From NCBI RefSeq assembly GCF_018555685.1, contig NZ_JAFLWW010000009.1, forward strand, positions 124,001 to 188,000: 64,000 nt of DNA, written 5' to 3'. The position numbers and the translations under genes are program-made. The notes under the pieces were generated by a model, which worked only from the letters and a program-made list of their open reading frames with translations, was not told where the DNA came from and ran no database searches. The stretch's first letter is position 1. Each line of letters opens with the position of its first letter. This stretch comes from Aminobacter anthyllidis. GTDB taxonomy: Bacteria; Pseudomonadota; Alphaproteobacteria; Rhizobiales; Rhizobiaceae. This document shows positions 23,518 to 35,526 of the stretch, one piece after another.

Positions 23518-26500
23518 TCATTGAAAATTACGCCCCTTGGGCATGACGCTGCTGGCCTTGCGGGCAAGCCTTTCATACGTTTGCACAACGCGTGGATCCT
23601 TTGCCGCTTTTTCGGCAACGCTTTGTCTTGCTCCGTTCGCCTGAGCAGGCGCGGCTTGAGCATCGGCGGATGCCTGCAGCTCTTCCGACATCGCGGCCAA
23701 CCAATGCGTCAGGTCCTCCATCTTGTCGGCGACGATGTGGATCACGCCTGATTCCGCCTGCAGCTTGCCGGTGACGCGGATGAACTTCGATCCCATGATG
23801 ACAGGCCGGAAACGCTCGAACACCCGCGACCAGACAATGACATTGGCGATCGAATGCTCGTCCTCCAGCGTGAGGAAGATGGCATTTCCCTTGCCCGGCC
23901 GCTGGCGCACCAGCACCAGCCCTGCGACGGAGACGCGCTGCCCGTCGGCCACGTTGCCGAGCCGGGCATTCGGTGTGATGCCAGCACGGTCGAGGTGATG
24001 CCTGAGAAAGGCCACCGGATGCGCCTTCAGCGACAGGCCGAGCGAGCGGTAGTCGTGGATGACATGTTCGCCGAGGGGCATTGACGGCAAATGCATCTCG
24101 GGTTCGTTGTTGGCCAGCTGGACGTCGGGACGGTCGAACAGCGGCAGCATCTCGGCGGCACTCCTGCCGTCGAGCGCACGCACCGCCCAGAGTGCGGCAC
24201 GCCTGTCGATATCGATCGAGCGGAAAGCATCAGCCTGGGCAAGCAACTCGATCTCGCCGACATCGAGCCCCGAGCGCAGCCAGACATCACGTACCGAGGC
24301 GTAGCCCTTGCCGCGCCGCTCGACGAAAACCTGCATCTTCTTGTCGGAAAGCCCCTTGATCTGGCGGAAGCCGAGCCGGACAGCGTGGCTGGTCCTGATG
24401 ACATCCCGCATTTCGGCGTGGCGTTGCTGAATGCGTTTTGGGTCGAAGCCTGAGCGCTCGAGCGTGCAGTCCCAGACGGATTGGTTGATATCGATCTGTC
24501 GGATCTCGACGCCGTGGTCCTGCGCATCGCGTACAAGCTGAGCCGGCCGGTAGAAGCCCATCGGCTGAGCGTTCAGGATCGCCGCGCAGAACACGTCTGG
24601 ATAGTATGCCTTGAACCAGCAGGAGGCGTAGACGAGCAGCGCAAAGGCCGCGGCATGGCTCTCGGGGAAACCGTACTCGCCAAAACCCTCGATCTGCTTG
24701 AAACAACGCTCGGCAAAGTCGCGCTCGTAACCACGCTCCACCATGCCCTTGATCATGCGGTCGCGGTAATTGCCGATCGTGCCGGTGCGCTTGAAGGTCG
24801 CCATGGCGCGCCTGAGCTGGTCGGCCTCGCCGGGCGTGAAGCCACCTGCGACGATGGCGATTTTCATCGCCTGCTCCTGGAACAGCGGCACGCCCAGCGT
24901 CTTGCCCAGGATGTCTTCGAGCTCCTTCTTGGGGAAATCTACCTTTTCCTTGCCCTGCCGCCGCCTGAGATAGGGGTGCACCATGTCGCCCTGGATCGGA
25001 CCGGGCCTCACGATCGCCACCTCGATGACAAGGTCATAGAATTCGCGCGGCTGGAGCCGCGGCAACATCGACATCTGCGCCCGGCTTTCGATCTGGAAGA
25101 CTCCAAGCGTATCGGCGCGGCAGATCATGTCATAGACTTTCTGGTCCCCCGCTGGAATCGTCGCCAATTCGAGTGGGCGGTCATGCTCGTCGCGGACACC
25201 ATATTGCTTGGTCAGCATGTCGAAGGCCTTGCGCAGGCAAGTCAGCATGCCGAGCGCCAGGACGTCGACCTTCAATATGCCGACGGCATCGAGGTCGTCC
25301 TTGTCCCACTCGACCATCTTGCGCTCGTCCATCGCCGTCTTGACGATCGGCACGATCTCGTCGAGTCGGTCGCGAGTGATAACGAAGCCGCCGACATGCT
25401 GCGACAGGTGGCGTGGAAAACCCATGATGCCGTTGGCATGTTCGATCACATGCCTGGTCACCGGATCAGCCTTGTCGAGCCCTCCGGCTGCCGTTTCCTT
25501 CTCGCCAAGCACGGAGGAGTACCAGCCCCATATCGACCCCGACAAAGCCCCCCTGACGTCATCCGACAGTCCCATCGCCTTGGCCACCTCGCGCAGAGCC
25601 GAGCGACCGCGATAGGTGACGACGGAGGCGGCGAGCGCGGTCCGCTTGGAGCTGTATCTTTCGTAGATGAACTCGATGACCTCGTTGCGCCGCTCGTGCT
25701 CGAAGTCGACGTCGATATCTGGCGGCTCGCCACGCTCCTCCGAGATGAAGCGCTCGAAAAGCACATCGACGATGTCGGGTCCGACGTCGGTGATGCCGAT
25801 GCAGAAGCAGATGACCGAATTGGCAGCAGATCCGCGCCCCTGGCAGAGGATTTCCTTCGAGCGGGCGAACTTCACGATCTCGTGGACGGTGAGGAAATAG
25901 CGGGCGTAATTGAGCTTTTCGACGATACCGAGCTCATGCCGGATGATGCCCTGCACCTTCTCCGGAACGCCATCCGGGTAGCGCTTTTTTGCTCCTTCCC
26001 AGGTCAGCCTTTCCAACTCCGCCTGAGGTTCGAGGCCCGATTCCGTCGGTTCGTCGGGATAATTGTATTGGAGCTCCTTCAGCGAGAAATGCAGGCTTTC
26101 AGCAAATCGCAGCGTCTCGGCAAGGGCCTCCGGATGATTGCGGAAAAGCCTCGCCATATCGGCCGGTGGCTTGAGGTGGCGTTCGGCATTCGCCTTGAGC
26201 TCAAGGCCGGCCTCGGCAACAGGCACGCTGAGGCGGATCGCCGTCAGCACGTCCTGCAGCGGCCGCTGGCTCGGGGCATGGTAGAGCGCATCATTGGTCG
26301 CCATCAGCGGCACGCCTGCCATGGCGGCCATGGTCGCGGCCTGCTCGATCCTGAAACGGTCGCTGCCGCCAAAATTCGGCGCCACCGCCAGCCACAAGGA
26401 GGTGCCAAACCGCTCCTTGAGACTGCGCAGAAGCGTGACGTCATCTTCGGTCGCAGCCGTGACGTCGGGCAGGACGGCAAGCGACAGCAGGTCGCCCCAC

Positions 26501-26865
26501 TCGAAAAGATCTTCCCGGTAGAGAAGCGGTGCACCCTTTTCGCTCTCATCCCGGGTATTGGCCTGGGTGAGCAGGCGGCACAGATGACCCCAACCCTTGC
26601 GATCCCTTGGGTAGGCGAGCATGTCGGGCGTGCCATCAGCGAAAACCAGGCGGCATCCCGGGTGGTAGGCCAGCCCCTCCGTCTGGGCCATCTTCCAGGC
26701 GCGCACGGTGCCCGCCACGGTGTTGCAGTCGGCAAGGCCGATGGCGGAAAGCCCCAGGAACTTCGCCGCGATCACCAGCTCTTCCGGCGCGGAAGCACCG
26801 CGCAGGAAAGAGAAATTCGACTGGATGCCGAATTCGGCATAGGCGATCGGAGCTGCGGCGCTCAT
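23518..26865 (-). CDS. dnaE2: Error-prone DNA polymerase III alpha subunit DnaE2
   Basis: Catalytic polymerase of the SOS mutasome, 1115 residues. An N-terminal PHP domain ([19 protein letters not shown]), a C-family palm with the metal-binding [12 protein letters not shown] near residue 380, a [16 protein letters not shown] segment, the helix-hairpin region and a C-terminal OB fold are visible. The ending PKGRNFQ is the DnaE2 tail. The ATG at 26865 overlaps the imuB stop by four bases (ATGA); the 47 residues encoded upstream in frame overlap imuB and are rejected. With ImuA and ImuB it performs translesion synthesis and damage-induced mutagenesis. Confidence 0.96.
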
Positions 26866-28463
26866 GCGAAGACCCCGTGCAGGAACCAGCGTGGCACCGC
26901 TTGCGCATTGTAGAGGCCCTGCCGGTAGAGCCAGTAGCGACGGCCCTCGGCGTCCTCGATACGGTAGTAGTCGCGCGTCGGCGCGTCCGCGTCCTCGCGC
27001 CACCACTCCGGTGCGATGCGCTCGGGCCCTTCCGCTCGAGCCACGCGATGCAGCGCCCGGCGCCAGTGGAAATTGAGCGGCGGGCCATCGGGGACCTCGG
27101 TCGCCGGCACGTCGATGGGTTCGGGTTGCCGGAACAGGCGGATGGGGCGGTCGACCTGTCGAGGGTGCCGGCCGGCTTGCTGCACCGCCCTGGCCGGACG
27201 CGCGACCTGGCCTTTGCGCGCCTCCTCCTGGGCATAGGGCCGGGCAGGCGCGGCACGTTCGGGCAAATGGCTCTCGACGGGGACGGCTTCGAGCACCGCA
27301 GCCTCACCAAGGCGGGCACCGATGCGATCGGCAAAGATCGCCAGCTCCTCCCCGCCATCCTCGACCTCGCCGGCAAGGTCGGCCTGGCGTGCGTCGAATC
27401 GGGCTGTCGACAGGGCGGAGAGACGCACGAGGTCGAAGCCGTAGCCGGCATCGATGGTCTCGCCGAGCGTCGCCAGCCGCTCATGGAACAGTCTGCGCAC
27501 CAGTGTCGGCTCGCGGATGGGGCGCGAGGCGCCGACAGTTATGCGGCTGACCATGCCGTCGACCCTGAACAGCAGGAGTTCGAGGGCGCGTGCGCCCTCT
27601 TCCCTGCGTTCGAGATCGACCTTGAGGGTGGCGGCGAGCAGGCCGATCAGCCGCTCGATGTCGTCGATGAGCGACAGCGGGTCGGCGAGATGGCGTTCGA
27701 CCGAAAGCGGCGCGACGGGCAGGCGCGGCGAGATCGCCTCCTCGAGCCGGCCCAACGCCTGGTCGAGGCGCTCGATGAGCTCGGTACCGAAGCGGCGGAC
27801 GAGCGGCGCGCGCGGTCCGTCCATGATGGCACCCACTGTCCGTAGCCCGACGCTTTCGAGGCTCGCCTTCGTCCTGGCATCAATCCGCAGCGCCGACAGC
27901 GGCAGGCGGGAAAGGAAATTGCGCTCGCTGCCCGGGGCCAGAATATGGCCGGTGGCGAAACGGGCCGCCGCCCATGCCGCGCCCGGTGTGGAGGCAAGAC
28001 CGGCACGCACGTCGAAGCCCTGGTGGAAAAACCGCGCCATCAGATCGGCGAGCAGCGCCTTTTCGCCACCGAAGAGATGGGCACAGCCGGTAATATCGAG
28101 GAACAGCCCGTTTTCACCGTCGATCGCGACCAGCGGCGTGTAGCGGTCGCACCAGTCGGCAAGGCCTTCGAGCAGCCGGCGGTCGGCCTCGGGATCGGCT
28201 TCGACGACGTCGATGTCGGGGTGCATGGCGCGCGCCTCGGCGATGCCCATGCCCGGCTTCAGCCGGAGCGCCTCAGCCCGTGCGTCGAGGCCGGCGATGC
28301 GCTGGGTGTTGCTCTCGCGATGGCTTGTTACCAGCGGTTTCAGCGGCTGCGGGCTTGAACGCCAGGACCGCCCCAGCCTGCGCCGGAGGACGCGTTCGGC
28401 CGCGAGATGGGGAAACCACAGCGACACGATTCTCTGGGTTTCGTTCTGCGAGGGTGCGTGCAT
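26862..28463 (-). CDS. imuB: Y-family polymerase-like mutasome protein ImuB
   Basis: Adapter of the ImuA-ImuB-DnaE2 mutasome, about 533 residues. It has the Y-family fold but begins [18 protein letters not shown], lacking the acidic catalytic residues of true Y polymerases, as known for ImuB. The segments [29 protein letters not shown] and [26 protein letters not shown] follow family order. The ATG at 28463 gives the conserved N-terminus, which places its first 191 bases inside the end of imuA in a different frame. Confidence 0.92.
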
Positions 28464-29259
28464 CGGGGTTCCATTCCAGAATGAAGCTGCCGGGAAGAGC
28501 CGTGCGGCTCTTGCCGATCTCGACAGCGAAGGCGGGTGCTGCGATCGAACCGGCCAGCGGACCGAGAAGCGTCTGCCGCAGGTTGGCAGGCGCGGGAGAG
28601 ACGACCAGCCGGACGGGTGCCGCCGTCGGCTCCGGCGCGGCCGACTGGCGCAGCAGGAAGACGGGCCGGCCGCTGTCTTGCGCCCGGCGGTGCAGGCGCC
28701 GCGTCGCCGTGAGGTCAACGATGCGCGGGTTGCCGCGCAGTTCGACGACGATGGCCGCGATCTCCTCGATGCGGGCGGCCTCCTCGGCGATCCAGAGCAC
28801 GTCTGAGGCTTTCGGCGCCTCGGCAAGCAGCAGGCTTTCGGCTGACATGCCGAAGAAGCTGGCGAGACCCGGCGCGTAGGGAAGCCCCGCCTCCCGGAAC
28901 ATCTCGGTGGTGCCGACCCACAGCACCAGATCATTGCGCCGCGACCGCTCCTTCAGCATGCCGCTGACGAGACAGAGGGCGAGCCCCGCGGCGGCACCGG
29001 CATTGCGGGTTTCGGTGCCATGGATCTCGGTCAGCGCCGCCTTCGGCAGGCCACCGCCGAGCACCTTGTCGAGCCGCTCGACACCCGTCGGCAGGAAGAA
29101 GTCGCGCGCCGAGGCATGGCCGTTGCGGCGGACCAAAAGCCCCGCGACCGGCTGGCCGTCGGCAGGCGCGACCAGCCTTTCGGCCAGCGTGCCCTCGATC
29201 TTCGCGATCTTCTGGCGCAAGGCAAAAACGACGTCCTGCGCCACGGCGCTGGTCGCCAT
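28273..29259 (-). CDS. imuA: Mutasome protein ImuA (RecA/SulA-like)
   Basis: First gene of the SOS mutasome operon, 328 residues. The RecA-like core is recognised from LPTGVERLDKVLGGGLPKAALTEIHGTE near residue 50 and LVLWVGTTEMFREAGLPYAPGLASFFGM near 112. A GGAGG site precedes the ATG at 29259. The C-terminal ~60 residues are proline- and arginine-rich and overlap the imuB start. A LexA box lies 23-37 bases upstream of the start. Confidence 0.9.
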   Translation of the reverse strand: MATSAVAQDVVFALRQKIAKIEGTLAERLVAPADGQPVAGLLVRRNGHASARDFFLPTGVERLDKVLGGGLPKAALTEIHGTETRNAGAAAGLALCLVSGMLKERSRRNDLVLWVGTTEMFREAGLPYAPGLASFFGMSAESLLLAEAPKASDVLWIAEEAARIEEIAAIVVELRGNPRIVDLTATRRLHRRAQDSGRPVFLLRQSAAPEPTAAPVRLVVSPAPANLRQTLLGPLAGSIAAPAFAVEIGKSRTALPGSFILEWNPDARTLAERNPENRVAVVSPSRGRTRPPAQAGAVLAFKPAAAETAGNKPSREQHPAHRRPRRTG

Positions 29260-29281
29260 GTCGATCTGCCTCCGGCTAATT

Positions 29282-29296
29282 GTTCCTGTTATGTTC
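29282..29296. promoter_or_regulatory. LexA (SOS) box of alphaproteobacterial type upstream of imuA
   Basis: GTTC-CTGTTAT-GTTC matches the direct-repeat GTTC-N7-GTTC LexA site known in alphaproteobacteria with no mismatch. It is centred about 30 bases upstream of the imuA start, so DNA damage should derepress imuA-imuB-dnaE2. Confidence 0.85.
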
Positions 29297-29452
29297 TTAT
29301 AGATTCCAGAGGCGCCGGTGAGAGTCAAGCCGATTCACAGGGAATTTATTCCTCTCTCTGGAGAGCCCTGCTCATCGCTTATTTGTCGCCCGAGCGGCAA
29401 AGGCCTCGTAAGCGCGGCGGCAAAGGGCTATATGCCCCCAAAAGGACAAAGA

Positions 29453-32442: not shown

Positions 32443-32556
32443 CTATGCCTCTCCCGCGCCCATCGACAGCGCGGCGAGGAAGGTCATCATCGCCTCGACC
32501 TCGGATATTGCCCGGCCCGACAGGCCGTGAGGCAAGAAGAAGGGCGTTGTAATCAT
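32443..32556 (-). CDS. Possible 37-residue small protein
   Basis: A short frame starts at ATG 32556 and encodes MITTPFFLPHGLSGRAISEV followed by a hydrophobic AMMTFLAALSMGAGEA tail. A GAGGG stretch lies about 11 bases upstream. It is the only credible content of the 300-base gap between the FAD oxidoreductase and the LOV protein apart from the repeat. It might be the leftover end of a degraded gene. I recognise no family. Confidence 0.25.
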   Translation of the reverse strand: MITTPFFLPHGLSGRAISEVEAMMTFLAALSMGAGEA

Positions 32557-32570
32557 GGTCGCTCGAGCCC

Positions 32571-34289
32571 TCAAACCAGCGCTTCAAACCCTGCGGCGCT
32601 GACCGGCCGACCGAACAGAAATCCTTGCCCGAAATCGCAGTCCATGTCGCGCAAGAGTGTGCGTTCCACTTCTGTCTCTATTCCCTCGGCGACGACATGA
32701 AAGCCGAGTTCACTGGAAATCCTGATGATCGACTCAATGATGACCCGCTTGGATCGGCTTTGCGCTAGCCCTTTGACAAAACCGCGATCGATCTTGATTT
32801 CTGTGAGGGGGAAATCTTCGAGATAGCGCAGATTTGCGTAACCGGTACCGAAATCGTCGATCGATAGGCCGACGCCCAGTTCGCGCAAATGTCTCATGAT
32901 CGACAGCATTTCCGCAGAACTCTCGACCATCAAGCTCTCGGTGAGCTCAAGCTTGATCCATGCGGCATCGGCGCCGCTGGCCGTCAGTACGTCGGAAACA
33001 AATTTCGGCATGTCGCGAAGCTTGAACTCGATCGGCGAAACATTGAACGAGAAGACTATCGGCACCGGTCGGTCCCTGTTCACGCGTGTGGCAAAGTCCG
33101 CGACGGTGCGAAGGCCACTGGCGCCAATGTCGAGTATGAGACCCGTGTCTTCGGCATGGCCGACGAACTTGTCCGGCGACTGCATTCCAAACAGGCCATG
33201 GTGCCATCGCAATAGGGCTTCAGCGCCGACAATAGTTCCTGTGGCGAGGTCGACCTGCGGCTGGTAGTGAAAATCGAACTCGTCATGTTCCAGTGCCTGC
33301 TGCATTTCGTTGGTCATTCGCAGTCGGTTTCGGGCGCGCCGATCATCCTCAGGGCTGAATGCGCAAACATCGAGGAATGCGGACGACTTCGACCGATGCA
33401 AGGCGGCCCCGGCACGACGAACCAGCGTCATGGCGTCCGTCGTTTGGTTGCCAACGACATAGCCCATTGCAAAACGTATCCTGATCGTTGCGCCGGCAAC
33501 GAGATAGCGCGGCGCCAGGGAATGCCGGATCATTTCAATTGTAGCTTGAGCCTCGTCGGCATTGCCAAGCGGATGGGCGAGCGCAAACTCATTGGATCCC
33601 GTACGGCAGACCAGTGCCGCGCCAGTGTTGGTCAGGCGTCGGGCAATCTGCACCAGCACCTGGTCGCCAACATCATATCCGTAACCTTCGTTGATGTCAT
33701 GGAACCGAGCCATGTCGATCTTGGCAAGCAGGATCGGCCGCTCCCTGGTACGAAGGAGGATGTCGGTGTCCTCGACGAAGGAATATCTGTTGAGCACACT
33801 GGTCAGCATGTCGGCGCGAGTGCTCTGGGCAATTTGAGCCGCAGCGGCCCTGCTCGCCGTCACGTCCCGCATCAGTCCCAAATAGTGCGTCGGCTCGCCA
33901 CCAGCTATGCTCACGGCCGCGAGACGGAGTTCGTTCCAAAACAAGCTACCGTCCTTGCGATAGTTCTTCAGCGTGACGGCAACATCCGCACGACGGGCGA
34001 TTGCGTCGCGCATGGACTGGATTTCGGGTTGAAGGCAATCGCTGCCTTGCAGGAACCGGCAGTTTCTCCCTATCAGTTCGTCACTAGAATAGCCGGTGGT
34101 ATCCTGGAAAGCGCTGTTGACGTAGACGAGCGGCATACCCCTTTCACGCAGATCGCTGATGGCCACACCATCCCTCGATAGATCGGGCAGCCGGGCGGCG
34201 ATCGCTTCCGGCACGCTTGGGCGGCGCGGGTTGGCGGCCGCGGTAGTCCGGATCAGACTACCAAACCCGGCCTTGAAAAGCTCTGTCAT
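32571..34289 (-). CDS. LOV-GGDEF-EAL protein, probable light-regulated c-di-GMP phosphodiesterase
   Basis: Three-domain signalling protein of 572 residues. Residues about 30-145 are a PAS domain of LOV type, with GRNCRFLQG (photoadduct Cys77), NSAF (Asn58), NYRKDGSLFWNEL (Asn109, Asn119). The last strand reads YLGLMRDVT, with Met140 where LOV domains carry a signalling glutamine. Residues about 155-310 are GGDEF-like with GSNEF (231-235) in place of GGDEF, so cyclase activity is unlikely. Residues about 325-570 are an EAL domain with Glu357 (EALLRW), Asn416, Glu448, DDFGTGY at 478, Lys499, EGIET at 535 and QGFLFG at 555, all expected for hydrolysis. No membrane segment is visible, so it is probably cytoplasmic. 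It is divergent from a MEDS-LuxR gene. Confidence 0.9.
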   Translation of the reverse strand: MTELFKAGFGSLIRTTAAANPRRPSVPEAIAARLPDLSRDGVAISDLRERGMPLVYVNSAFQDTTGYSSDELIGRNCRFLQGSDCLQPEIQSMRDAIARRADVAVTLKNYRKDGSLFWNELRLAAVSIAGGEPTHYLGLMRDVTASRAAAAQIAQSTRADMLTSVLNRYSFVEDTDILLRTRERPILLAKIDMARFHDINEGYGYDVGDQVLVQIARRLTNTGAALVCRTGSNEFALAHPLGNADEAQATIEMIRHSLAPRYLVAGATIRIRFAMGYVVGNQTTDAMTLVRRAGAALHRSKSSAFLDVCAFSPEDDRRARNRLRMTNEMQQALEHDEFDFHYQPQVDLATGTIVGAEALLRWHHGLFGMQSPDKFVGHAEDTGLILDIGASGLRTVADFATRVNRDRPVPIVFSFNVSPIEFKLRDMPKFVSDVLTASGADAAWIKLELTESLMVESSAEMLSIMRHLRELGVGLSIDDFGTGYANLRYLEDFPLTEIKIDRGFVKGLAQSRSKRVIIESIIRISSELGFHVVAEGIETEVERTLLRDMDCDFGQGFLFGRPVSAAGFEALV

Positions 34290-34465
34290 GTTGGGGCCAC
34301 AGCTGGTAGTCTCTCCGGAGGTGCACGCCCCATAAATGGCCAGTTACCCCGCACATTCTACTGGTACGATCATCAGGTTCCGCAACGGAATGGTCGACGT
34401 AGCGTCGGCTGCGACCGTTTTTGTGGGTCAGTGAAGTACCCGTGCATCCGGAAAGCGGCATCGAC

Positions 34466-35317
34466 ATGAACGATGAGCCTGCCTATGCGCCCCGCAAGTC
34501 CGGCATCCGCGTCATGGGCGAGATCTCCTGGGGCACACATATCTGCGTCTTCTACGAAGCGGAACAGGACCTGCTTGCCACCAACTCTTCCTATTTCGCG
34601 GCTGGTCTGGAGGACAACGAATTCTGCATCTGGGCGGTCTCCGATCCGATCGACGCGGAGATGGCGAAGGATGCATTGCGGCAGTCCATCCCCGACATCG
34701 ATACACGTCTGGTGGCCGGCCAGATGGAGATGATCCCTGCCGCTGACTGGTATCTTCCGGGCGGAGAGTTCGACATGCAGCACATCACCGGCGGCTGGAA
34801 TGAGAAGCTGCGTTCAGCCTTGGAAAAAGGCTTCGCTGGGATGAGAGTGAGCGGTAACGCATTCTGGATCGGCACCAGCCACTGGAAGGAGTTTTGCCAA
34901 TATGAGCATGAACTCGACCGGTCACTGGCGGGTCAGAAGATGGTCGTGCTGTGCACTTATTCCCTGTCGAAAAGCAGGGCCGTGGACCTGCTTGACGTCG
35001 CGCGCGCCCACCAATTCACCATCACCCGGCGAAAGGGAGAATGGGAATTTCTAGAAACGCCAGAGCTACAGGCCGCCAAGCAGGAAGTCAGAAAGCTGAA
35101 AGGCGCACTTGATGTCCTCTCGGATGCCGGCCATGCCGCTTTCACGGCCCGCGAGCGTGTCGTGCTCGCCCAAATCGTCAGGGGTTATTCGAGTAAGGAG
35201 ATTGCCCGCACCTTGGGAATTGCCCCGCGAACGGTCGAGTTTCACAGGGCCAATCTTCTCAAGAAAACCAACGCACGAAGCACGGTCCACCTCTTGCGCA
35301 TAGTTCTTGGCGAGTAG
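34466..35317 (+). CDS. MEDS-domain sensor with C-terminal LuxR DNA-binding domain
   Basis: One-component regulator of about 283 residues. Residues about 15-190 match the MEDS (DcmR-type) sensory domain, with the GTHICVFYE motif (His25, Cys27), EDNEFCIWAVSDP near residue 49, GQMEMIPAADWYL near 85, and LCTYSL near 162. Residues 224-280 are a LuxR helix-turn-helix (AFTARERVVLAQIVRGYSSK, TVEFHRANLLKK). The start is uncertain: ATG 34466 is preceded by GGAAAG, and a TTG at 34421 or GTG at 34442 would add 8-15 residues. It is divergent from the LOV-EAL gene with about 175 bases between. The ligand of MEDS domains is not firmly known. Confidence 0.85.
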   Translation: MNDEPAYAPRKSGIRVMGEISWGTHICVFYEAEQDLLATNSSYFAAGLEDNEFCIWAVSDPIDAEMAKDALRQSIPDIDTRLVAGQMEMIPAADWYLPGGEFDMQHITGGWNEKLRSALEKGFAGMRVSGNAFWIGTSHWKEFCQYEHELDRSLAGQKMVVLCTYSLSKSRAVDLLDVARAHQFTITRRKGEWEFLETPELQAAKQEVRKLKGALDVLSDAGHAAFTARERVVLAQIVRGYSSKEIARTLGIAPRTVEFHRANLLKKTNARSTVHLLRIVLGE

Positions 35318-35526
35318 CACAACTCCGGACTTGCTCTTGCGATAGGAAGCTGGACCGGATTTGCGCGGCGATGAAACAGCACTATGCAATACGTTTCCGG
35401 GCAGCCTCAGCGGGTTGAACGTCCGCTATCGCTTCCCGGCAGCCACAAGCTGCGGGTCCGATTCCGGCCCCAATCGAGACATTCAATAACTCGATACCGA
35501 GCATCCGCAAAACAACCTTGCGCCCC

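Follow-up and report, generated by a model that had tools for sequence, protein, structure and literature searches.

The LOV-GGDEF-EAL protein encoded in the window, by which is meant the whole 64,000-nucleotide stretch of Aminobacter anthyllidis DNA analysed here, is probably a working blue-light photoreceptor of the published LOV-deltaQ kind, operating by the steps set out below taken jointly. An earlier note on this DNA had pointed out that residue 140 is Met where LOV domains have Gln, and that observation is correct. The finding is real, and its central surprise, LOV signalling without the Gln, is already published (PMC9098866). Because the question of Gln-less signalling has been answered in print on a very probable orthologue, the window copy is mainly confirmatory, and what it confirms is that the loss of Gln is an old and stable state of a whole clade and not an accident. 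Still potentially important is the degenerate GGDEF motif set against reported cyclase activity, and a recurrent partner gene, for a MEDS-LuxR regulator, offers a concrete idea of what might be under the control of the light signal.

In the proposed mechanism the LOV domain would bind flavin and, as its intact residues suggest, form an adduct between Cys77 and the flavin in blue light. With no Gln at residue 140, water and neighbouring polar groups would relay the protonation of N5, as Dietler et al. propose (PMC9098866), and the change would travel by way of helix 144-158 into the GGDEF-EAL part. There the GGDEF domain would probably be a regulatory domain of the GTP-binding type and a poor cyclase, with the catalytic output of the full-length protein likely to come from the EAL domain, and the net effect would most likely be lower c-di-GMP in blue light. 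The adjacent MEDS-LuxR product would be a probable functional partner in loci of the Mesorhizobium type.

The protein and its LOV core

The gene (32571..34289, minus strand) is a continuous open reading frame of 572 amino acids from an ATG start, and the architecture assigned to it earlier is borne out by Pfam matches, all above cut-off, to PAS_9 (residues 40-145, 4.3e-18), GGDEF (residues 159-303, 1.9e-19) and EAL (residues 327-562, 1.9e-65). Pfam, PDB matches and an AlphaFold2 model together place the LOV domain at residues 37-146 (33852..34181, minus strand). The model, for which a 24-row alignment served as input, has a mean pLDDT of 85.4 and a pTM of 0.58; in it residue 140 lies within a strand formed by residues 135-142, and helix 144-158 then leads into the GGDEF domain (33381..33815, minus strand), whose degenerate character is apparent from the motif and active-site table of the family alignment. 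The EAL phosphodiesterase domain that follows (32604..33311, minus strand) is located by Pfam, alignments and fold matches, and has its catalytic residues intact.

At E<=0.001 there are 148 distinct PDB sequences that match the LOV stretch, foremost among them 8c05 (3.7e-29) and 7a6p. Translation together with PDB and family alignments assigns the codon of Cys77, the adduct-forming cysteine within GRNCRFLQG, to 34059..34061 and that of Met140, at the LOV glutamine position, to 33870..33872 (both minus strand). Cys77, Asn109 and Asn119 occupy the positions of the LOV cysteine and the two flavin Asn residues in a 96-row family alignment, Arg78, Leu80 and Gln81 of the core are likewise present, and both Asn residues are invariant in the 24-row alignment. 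The earlier description of an intact core has thus held up against PDB and family alignments alike, as has the Met at residue 140, which stands opposite Gln in all five of the PDB alignments printed. Having the conserved LOV residues and a residue other than Gln at the Gln position, the protein is a LOV-deltaQ as that class is defined in the account of PMC9098866.

According to that account, by Dietler et al. in 2022, there are about 350 putative natural LOV receptors without Gln, the Gln is generally dispensable, and water is proposed to relay N5 protonation when it is missing (PMC9098866). Loss of the Gln is consequently not the open puzzle for which it had been taken, and because the published work treats the residue as dispensable it no longer defines LOV function. 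Among the proteins described is the LOV-deltaQ-GGDEF-EAL protein of Mesorhizobium loti NZP2037 (WP_140774521.1 / ANN58260.1), reported to have Met at residue 140 (PMC9098866). Its fragment 1-326, which comprises LOV and GGDEF but no EAL, was read out in an Escherichia coli csgB-lacZ reporter of c-di-GMP at 145 Miller units in darkness and 30 in blue light, compared with about 2 for the empty vector and about 450 for a DgcE control, while red light had no effect on the output and the substitution M140Q brought little change, the mutant behaving like wild type (PMC9098866).

A clade without the glutamine

Relatives were scanned by genome contigs, the best 80 of 486 being kept. The 96 rows of the family alignment, the window protein included, come from 143 loci and were required to cover the query from residue 60 at the latest to residue 535 at least with an open frame of at least 400 amino acids; loci with partial matches, seven duplicates and a frame-broken copy on pMspAR07a were left out. 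Cys77 is kept in 46 rows. When a tree was built from these 46 without the Met140 and GGDEF-motif columns, the window protein fell in a clade of 22 rows (support 100/100), in which the Cys is present by choice as only Cys77 rows were taken. Since the Cys had been the basis of selection, a second, quick tree was made from all 96 rows with the Cys, residue 140 and motif columns removed, and there the same 22 rows and one Cys-less sequence, L008, form a 23-row group (SH-aLRT 100). L008 stands on a long branch beside or inside the 22, with a branch support of 2.

Tabulating the equivalents of residue 140, as the earlier note had suggested, yields Gln in none of the 23 clade rows; the 22 have Ile (9), Leu (6), Met (5) or Val (2), and L008 has Met. 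The alignment thus shows that members of the clade normally carry a hydrophobic residue here, be it Met, Ile, Leu or Val. The GGDEF motif is degenerate throughout, reading GANEF in eight of the 22 rows, GSNEF in six, GSDEF in three, GNDQF in two, and GSNDF, AADEF and GGNEF in one each, with GADEF in L008, and GG(D/E)EF is matched by no row of the 23. The LOV cysteine and the full EAL catalytic set are kept in all rows except L008. That sequence (L008, 6001-7608; from a Caulobacteraceae metagenome-assembled genome) has lost the LOV Cys, GG(D/E)EF and most of the EAL residues, with EWGQENKRQ where the others have ENEEDDKEQ, and is perhaps a relative without any catalytic function, branching either with the Gln-less clade or next to it.

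Outside the clade there are 24 Cys-bearing rows, of which 16 keep the Gln and 20 have a motif matching GG[DE][ED]F. The fewest changes that the Cys-row tree requires are five for presence or absence of Gln and four for an intact or degenerate motif. That loss of Gln causes degeneration of the GGDEF motif is not supported generally, and a causal link is not claimed, because outside the clade the Gln has usually gone without loss of the motif: seven of the eight Gln-less rows there retain the match. A literature search found nothing on the joint occurrence of Gln loss, degenerate GGDEF and intact EAL across the clade. One relative with Leu140 and GANEF, on plasmid p3 of Pararhizobium qamdonense (L131, 5905-9761), lies directly before a second EAL-domain gene that has an intact GGDEF; the plasmid is typed as conjugative.

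Phosphodiesterase or cyclase output

Family and PDB alignments place GSNEF at residues 231-235 (33585..33599, minus strand), where an active diguanylate cyclase has GG(D/E)EF. This reading of the motif was not mentioned in the earlier note. By alignment, Asn occupies the position of PleD E370 and Ser that of the second Gly. An RxxD I-site is absent from the domain, and where PA0575 has Arg after the residue matching Lys301 the window protein has Phe, a site that by its position would correspond to PleD R446. In PleD, as described in PMC7288161, E370 is a ligand of metal and phosphate, and N335 and D344 bind the base. D192, N200 and D209, the equivalents of the metal Asp and the base-binding Asn and Asp by the roles given there, are retained in the family alignment (PMC7288161), and the 24-row alignment shows no variation at K301.

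In the EAL domain E357, N416, E448, E451, D478, D479, K499, E535 and Q555, by their roles the catalytic residues of such a domain, form a complete set. None of the three best NCBIfam models reaches its cut-off; all three are models of phosphodiesterases (DibA, DosP and GepA). The fold matches of the modelled structure are headed by DosP and PA0575. As the EAL domain is intact, breakdown of c-di-GMP is the more likely output of the full-length protein, while the GSNEF motif and the missing I-site make the GGDEF domain probably a regulatory one of the GTP-binding type. Cases are known in which a degenerate GGDEF domain binds GTP and activates the EAL domain next to it, CC3396 being one described in PMC7288161.

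A rival reading, and a somewhat unlikely one, is that the GGDEF domain is an active cyclase, as in the M. loti fragment, with the EAL domain contributing a minor or opposing activity. The 145 Miller units in the dark, set against about 2 for the empty vector, argue against a dead GGDEF domain and were interpreted as cyclase activity (PMC9098866), and the substrate and metal residues that are kept, with the invariant K301, point the same way. Against it stand the Asn at the E370 position and the Ser for Gly, the missing I-site with Phe at the R446 position, and the variability of the motif across the clade; further, section 9 of PMC9098866 contains neither a catalytic-site mutant nor an assay of purified enzyme. 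The conflict could reflect an unusual cyclase, or some other cause of the reporter effect, or a difference between NZP2037 and the relatives compared here. The output proposed in the earlier note, breakdown of c-di-GMP, is therefore upheld in part: the intact EAL residues and the degenerate GGDEF domain favour it, but it is at odds with the cyclase activity of the fragment of the probable orthologue. EAL-driven breakdown by the full-length window protein is plausible on its residues, and the published fragment result would fit that mechanism in sign, though not in the assignment of a cyclase. Whether by EAL or by cyclase, blue light should leave less c-di-GMP, the sign for the full-length protein being an extrapolation. 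If a GSNEF domain is indeed the source of the published dark activity, that domain would count as a cyclase to which the GG(D/E)EF rule does not apply.

Light or redox

The earlier note had also raised, from the loss of Gln, a redox or constitutive sensor. In a fuller version of the redox proposal, the Met raises the midpoint potential of the flavin, and reduction, not light, is the main signal, or else light and redox are combined. Its support comes from AsLOV2, in which the same replacement, Q513M, is described as shifting E0 to -252 mV from the -278 mV of wild type (PMC11151830). The adduct of the mutant still formed, with an attenuated light response by circular dichroism, photoactivation was almost tenfold slower (0.005 compared with 0.048 per s), and recovery was slower as well (0.002 compared with 0.013 per s), according to the same account (PMC11151830). 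In AsLOV2 with the Gln substituted the spectrum is shifted to the blue by about 6 nm. The Met is not conserved, however; the clade has Ile, Leu, Met or Val at the position, and Ile or Val replaces it even in some orthologues 90-92% identical to the window protein. Cys77, in contrast, is kept in 22 of the 23 rows, as a light-sensing role would lead one to expect. The published Met140 protein, moreover, responds to blue and not to red light, and its M140Q form is reported to be like wild type (PMC9098866), so that the suggestion made from the Gln loss is not sustained. With residue 140 interchangeable and the cysteine retained, a redox or constitutive sensor was set low as the main reading and is quite improbable, though the window protein may have a secondary redox role beside the sensing of blue light preferred here.

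Orthologues, origin and selection

For the distribution of the gene, 146 genomes were taken as Mesorhizobium, a genus group in which proteins of the M. jarvisii and M. norvegicum loci recur unchanged. The genome searches score the best few first-look candidates per genome (among those listed, 9 of up to 60 for the LOV protein and 16 of up to 35 for the MEDS-LuxR protein), and a genome without a match in them is not thereby proved to lack the gene. Among the candidates so scored, a LOV-GGDEF-EAL match at E<=1e-120 occurs in 11 of the 146 genomes. Identity to the window protein is 90-92% in five of these, 84% in one, 65-66% in three and 48% in one; the remaining one is a frame-broken copy whose pieces are 85% and 94% identical. 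Three copies with Met140 are among those at 90-91%, and all three have GSNEF. In the window's own genus, ten genomes including that of the window itself, only homologues of 46-47% with a LOV part were found, in two of the others, which makes it probable that the window gene arrived horizontally from the Mesorhizobium pool.

The frame-broken copy, on pMspAR07a (L130, 10001-11721; NZ_CP080529.1, 238147-239867), has a change of frame near residue 256 and one in-frame stop further on. Its motif is GSKEF, its residue 140 is Ile, and the adjoining MEDS-LuxR gene is open.

When the window gene was set against orthologues, nine comparisons gave dN/dS values of 0.06-0.14 for the EAL domain, 0.16-0.28 for the GGDEF domain and 0.16-0.30 for the LOV domain, the last being computable in six of the nine, as LOV dS was saturated in three. 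The EAL value was lower than that of GGDEF in all nine and than that of LOV in all six computable. Five further pairs of orthologues gave 0.06-0.10 (EAL), 0.08-0.20 (GGDEF) and 0.05-0.24 (LOV). In one of these five, L138/L140, EAL was not the most constrained, with a LOV value of 0.05 below the 0.10 of EAL, and in L003/L138 the EAL and GGDEF values were nearly equal (0.076 and 0.082). With values well under 1, all three domains are therefore maintained, EAL usually the most strictly. That the protein is instead a dead or decaying sensor, with the loss of Gln part of a degeneration to which the GGDEF motif, the broken pMspAR07a copy and the distant L008 without Cys77 and most EAL residues might be referred, is very improbable, because dN/dS is low in every domain and the loss of Gln is general in a deep clade that keeps Cys77 and the EAL residues in 22 of 23 rows.

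Upstream of the LOV gene, comparison of loci delimits a conserved promoter-like element, GGAACCTGATGATCGTACCAGTAGAAT (GGAAC-N16-TAGAAT; 34355..34381, minus strand). At each of the 11 loci compared, the LOV start lies 54-72 nucleotides downstream of the end of the core, CCAGTAGAA, which has T or A as its next base and is the only part of the element kept down to the orthologues of 65% identity. It is found also at three tandem loci with the MEDS gene upstream and at a locus with the MEDS gene downstream, and since it is kept at all 11 whatever the position of that gene, it goes with the LOV gene and not with the divergent order.

The MEDS-LuxR neighbour

Divergent from the LOV gene is a gene for a MEDS-LuxR regulator (34466..35317, plus strand; alternative start 34421), in whose product Pfam recognizes a DcmR-type MEDS sensory domain (PF14417, 1.8e-42) and a GerE helix-turn-helix (PF00196, 4.1e-17). 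Its predicted structure, with a mean pLDDT of 47.7, is too poor to use. The two genes form a unit (32556..35359, spanning both strands) which blastn delimits as a block conserved between unrelated flanks. When the whole window was compared with eight loci, homology extended only over the pair, from about 32556 to 35359 (about 2.8 kb), reaching about 35485 in two of the eight, and the sole match outside the pair was one of 99 bases, to L130; this comparison took in flanks of 6 kb on each side at L001, L002 and L003, of 10 kb at L130 and of 1.5 kb at the remaining four. The near flanks of five Mesorhizobium loci represent at least two settings. Elsewhere in the window, at 23518-29328, an ORF with the Pfam domains of a DNA polymerase III alpha subunit, DnaE2-like, adjoins ORFs resembling ImuB and ImuA, in the manner of the usual SOS mutagenesis cassette.

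Among the best candidates scored per genome, a MEDS-LuxR match at E<=1e-40 occurs in 10 of the 146 Mesorhizobium genomes, exactly the 10 with a LOV orthologue of at least 65% identity (one of them frame-broken); none was found among those scored in the eleventh LOV genome, G420, which has the 48% homologue. In all 10 the two genes are adjacent, in three orders: divergent in six, as in the window, convergent with the MEDS gene downstream in one (L002/L137), and tandem with the MEDS gene upstream in three (L003/L139, L138 and L140). Because these genomes are related by descent, the cases of co-occurrence do not count as independent of one another. Among the candidates scored in 394 genomes of the family, four have a MEDS-LuxR match at E<=1e-30, two adjoining a LOV gene, one (in G001) without such a neighbour and one (in G296) at a contig end. 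The corresponding figure for 397 genomes of the order is six matches: the window, G223 and four others that reach no more than 32-38% identity. The fetched flanks of L005, L006 and L007, relatives outside Mesorhizobium, have no MEDS gene.

The G001 copy (L161, 5860-6798), from the window's own genus, is 69% identical to that of the window and has no LOV-GGDEF-EAL gene nearby. A strict obligate pairing of the two genes was rejected on account of this copy.

It may be, though this can be offered only tentatively and is on the doubtful side, that the pair is a mobile two-gene light module, in which a Gln-less LOV domain and a GSNEF GGDEF domain without an I-site would control c-di-GMP by light, through unconventional cyclase chemistry or through an allosteric relay to the EAL domain, and would act together with the MEDS-LuxR factor. 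Literature searches found nothing on the linkage of LOV-GGDEF-EAL and MEDS-LuxR genes, and nothing joining both DcmR and MEDS with c-di-GMP. Among the papers found for NZP2037 and LOV, PMC9098866 alone concerns LOV receptors by title and abstract; a search on Mesorhizobium with LOV, GGDEF and blue light found, besides it, only work on Ralstonia.

Comparison with known systems

Several known systems share one or other part of the design. PDB 8c05, a LOV-activated diguanylate cyclase which we take to be MsLadC, has a LOV domain fused to a GGDEF domain and is the best PDB match of the window LOV domain, but unlike the window protein it has Gln at the 140 position, and its chain of 321 residues is too short for an EAL domain. 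DosP, the oxygen-sensing phosphodiesterase of E. coli, and PA0575, presumably RbdA, resemble the window protein in joining a sensor to GGDEF-EAL, and both are strong sequence matches as well as top fold matches; DosP, unlike the window protein, is an oxygen sensor, sensing through haem, and not a LOV protein. Caulobacter CC3396 is presumably PdeA, EAL structures of which are among the fold matches of the window protein model. Like the window protein it has a degenerate GGDEF domain beside an EAL domain, which in CC3396 is active and is activated by binding of GTP; the account in PMC7288161 names no LOV domain in it. AsLOV2 Q513M has the same residue swap at the same LOV position, but is an engineered plant domain without a c-di-GMP output.

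The closest system is WP_140774521.1 of M. loti, which has the same architecture and, by the same numbering, Met140; the border of its published fragment, residue 326, matches the window's border between GGDEF and EAL domains, the latter starting at 327. The text of PMC9098866 bearing on it describes a cyclase and leaves a phosphodiesterase, and likewise a MEDS-LuxR neighbour of the gene, unmentioned. From the residue numbering, the domain border and the Met140 Mesorhizobium copies at 90-91% identity, the window protein is very likely its orthologue, and the same Met140 copies lead one to expect that the M. loti protein, too, has the GSNEF motif.
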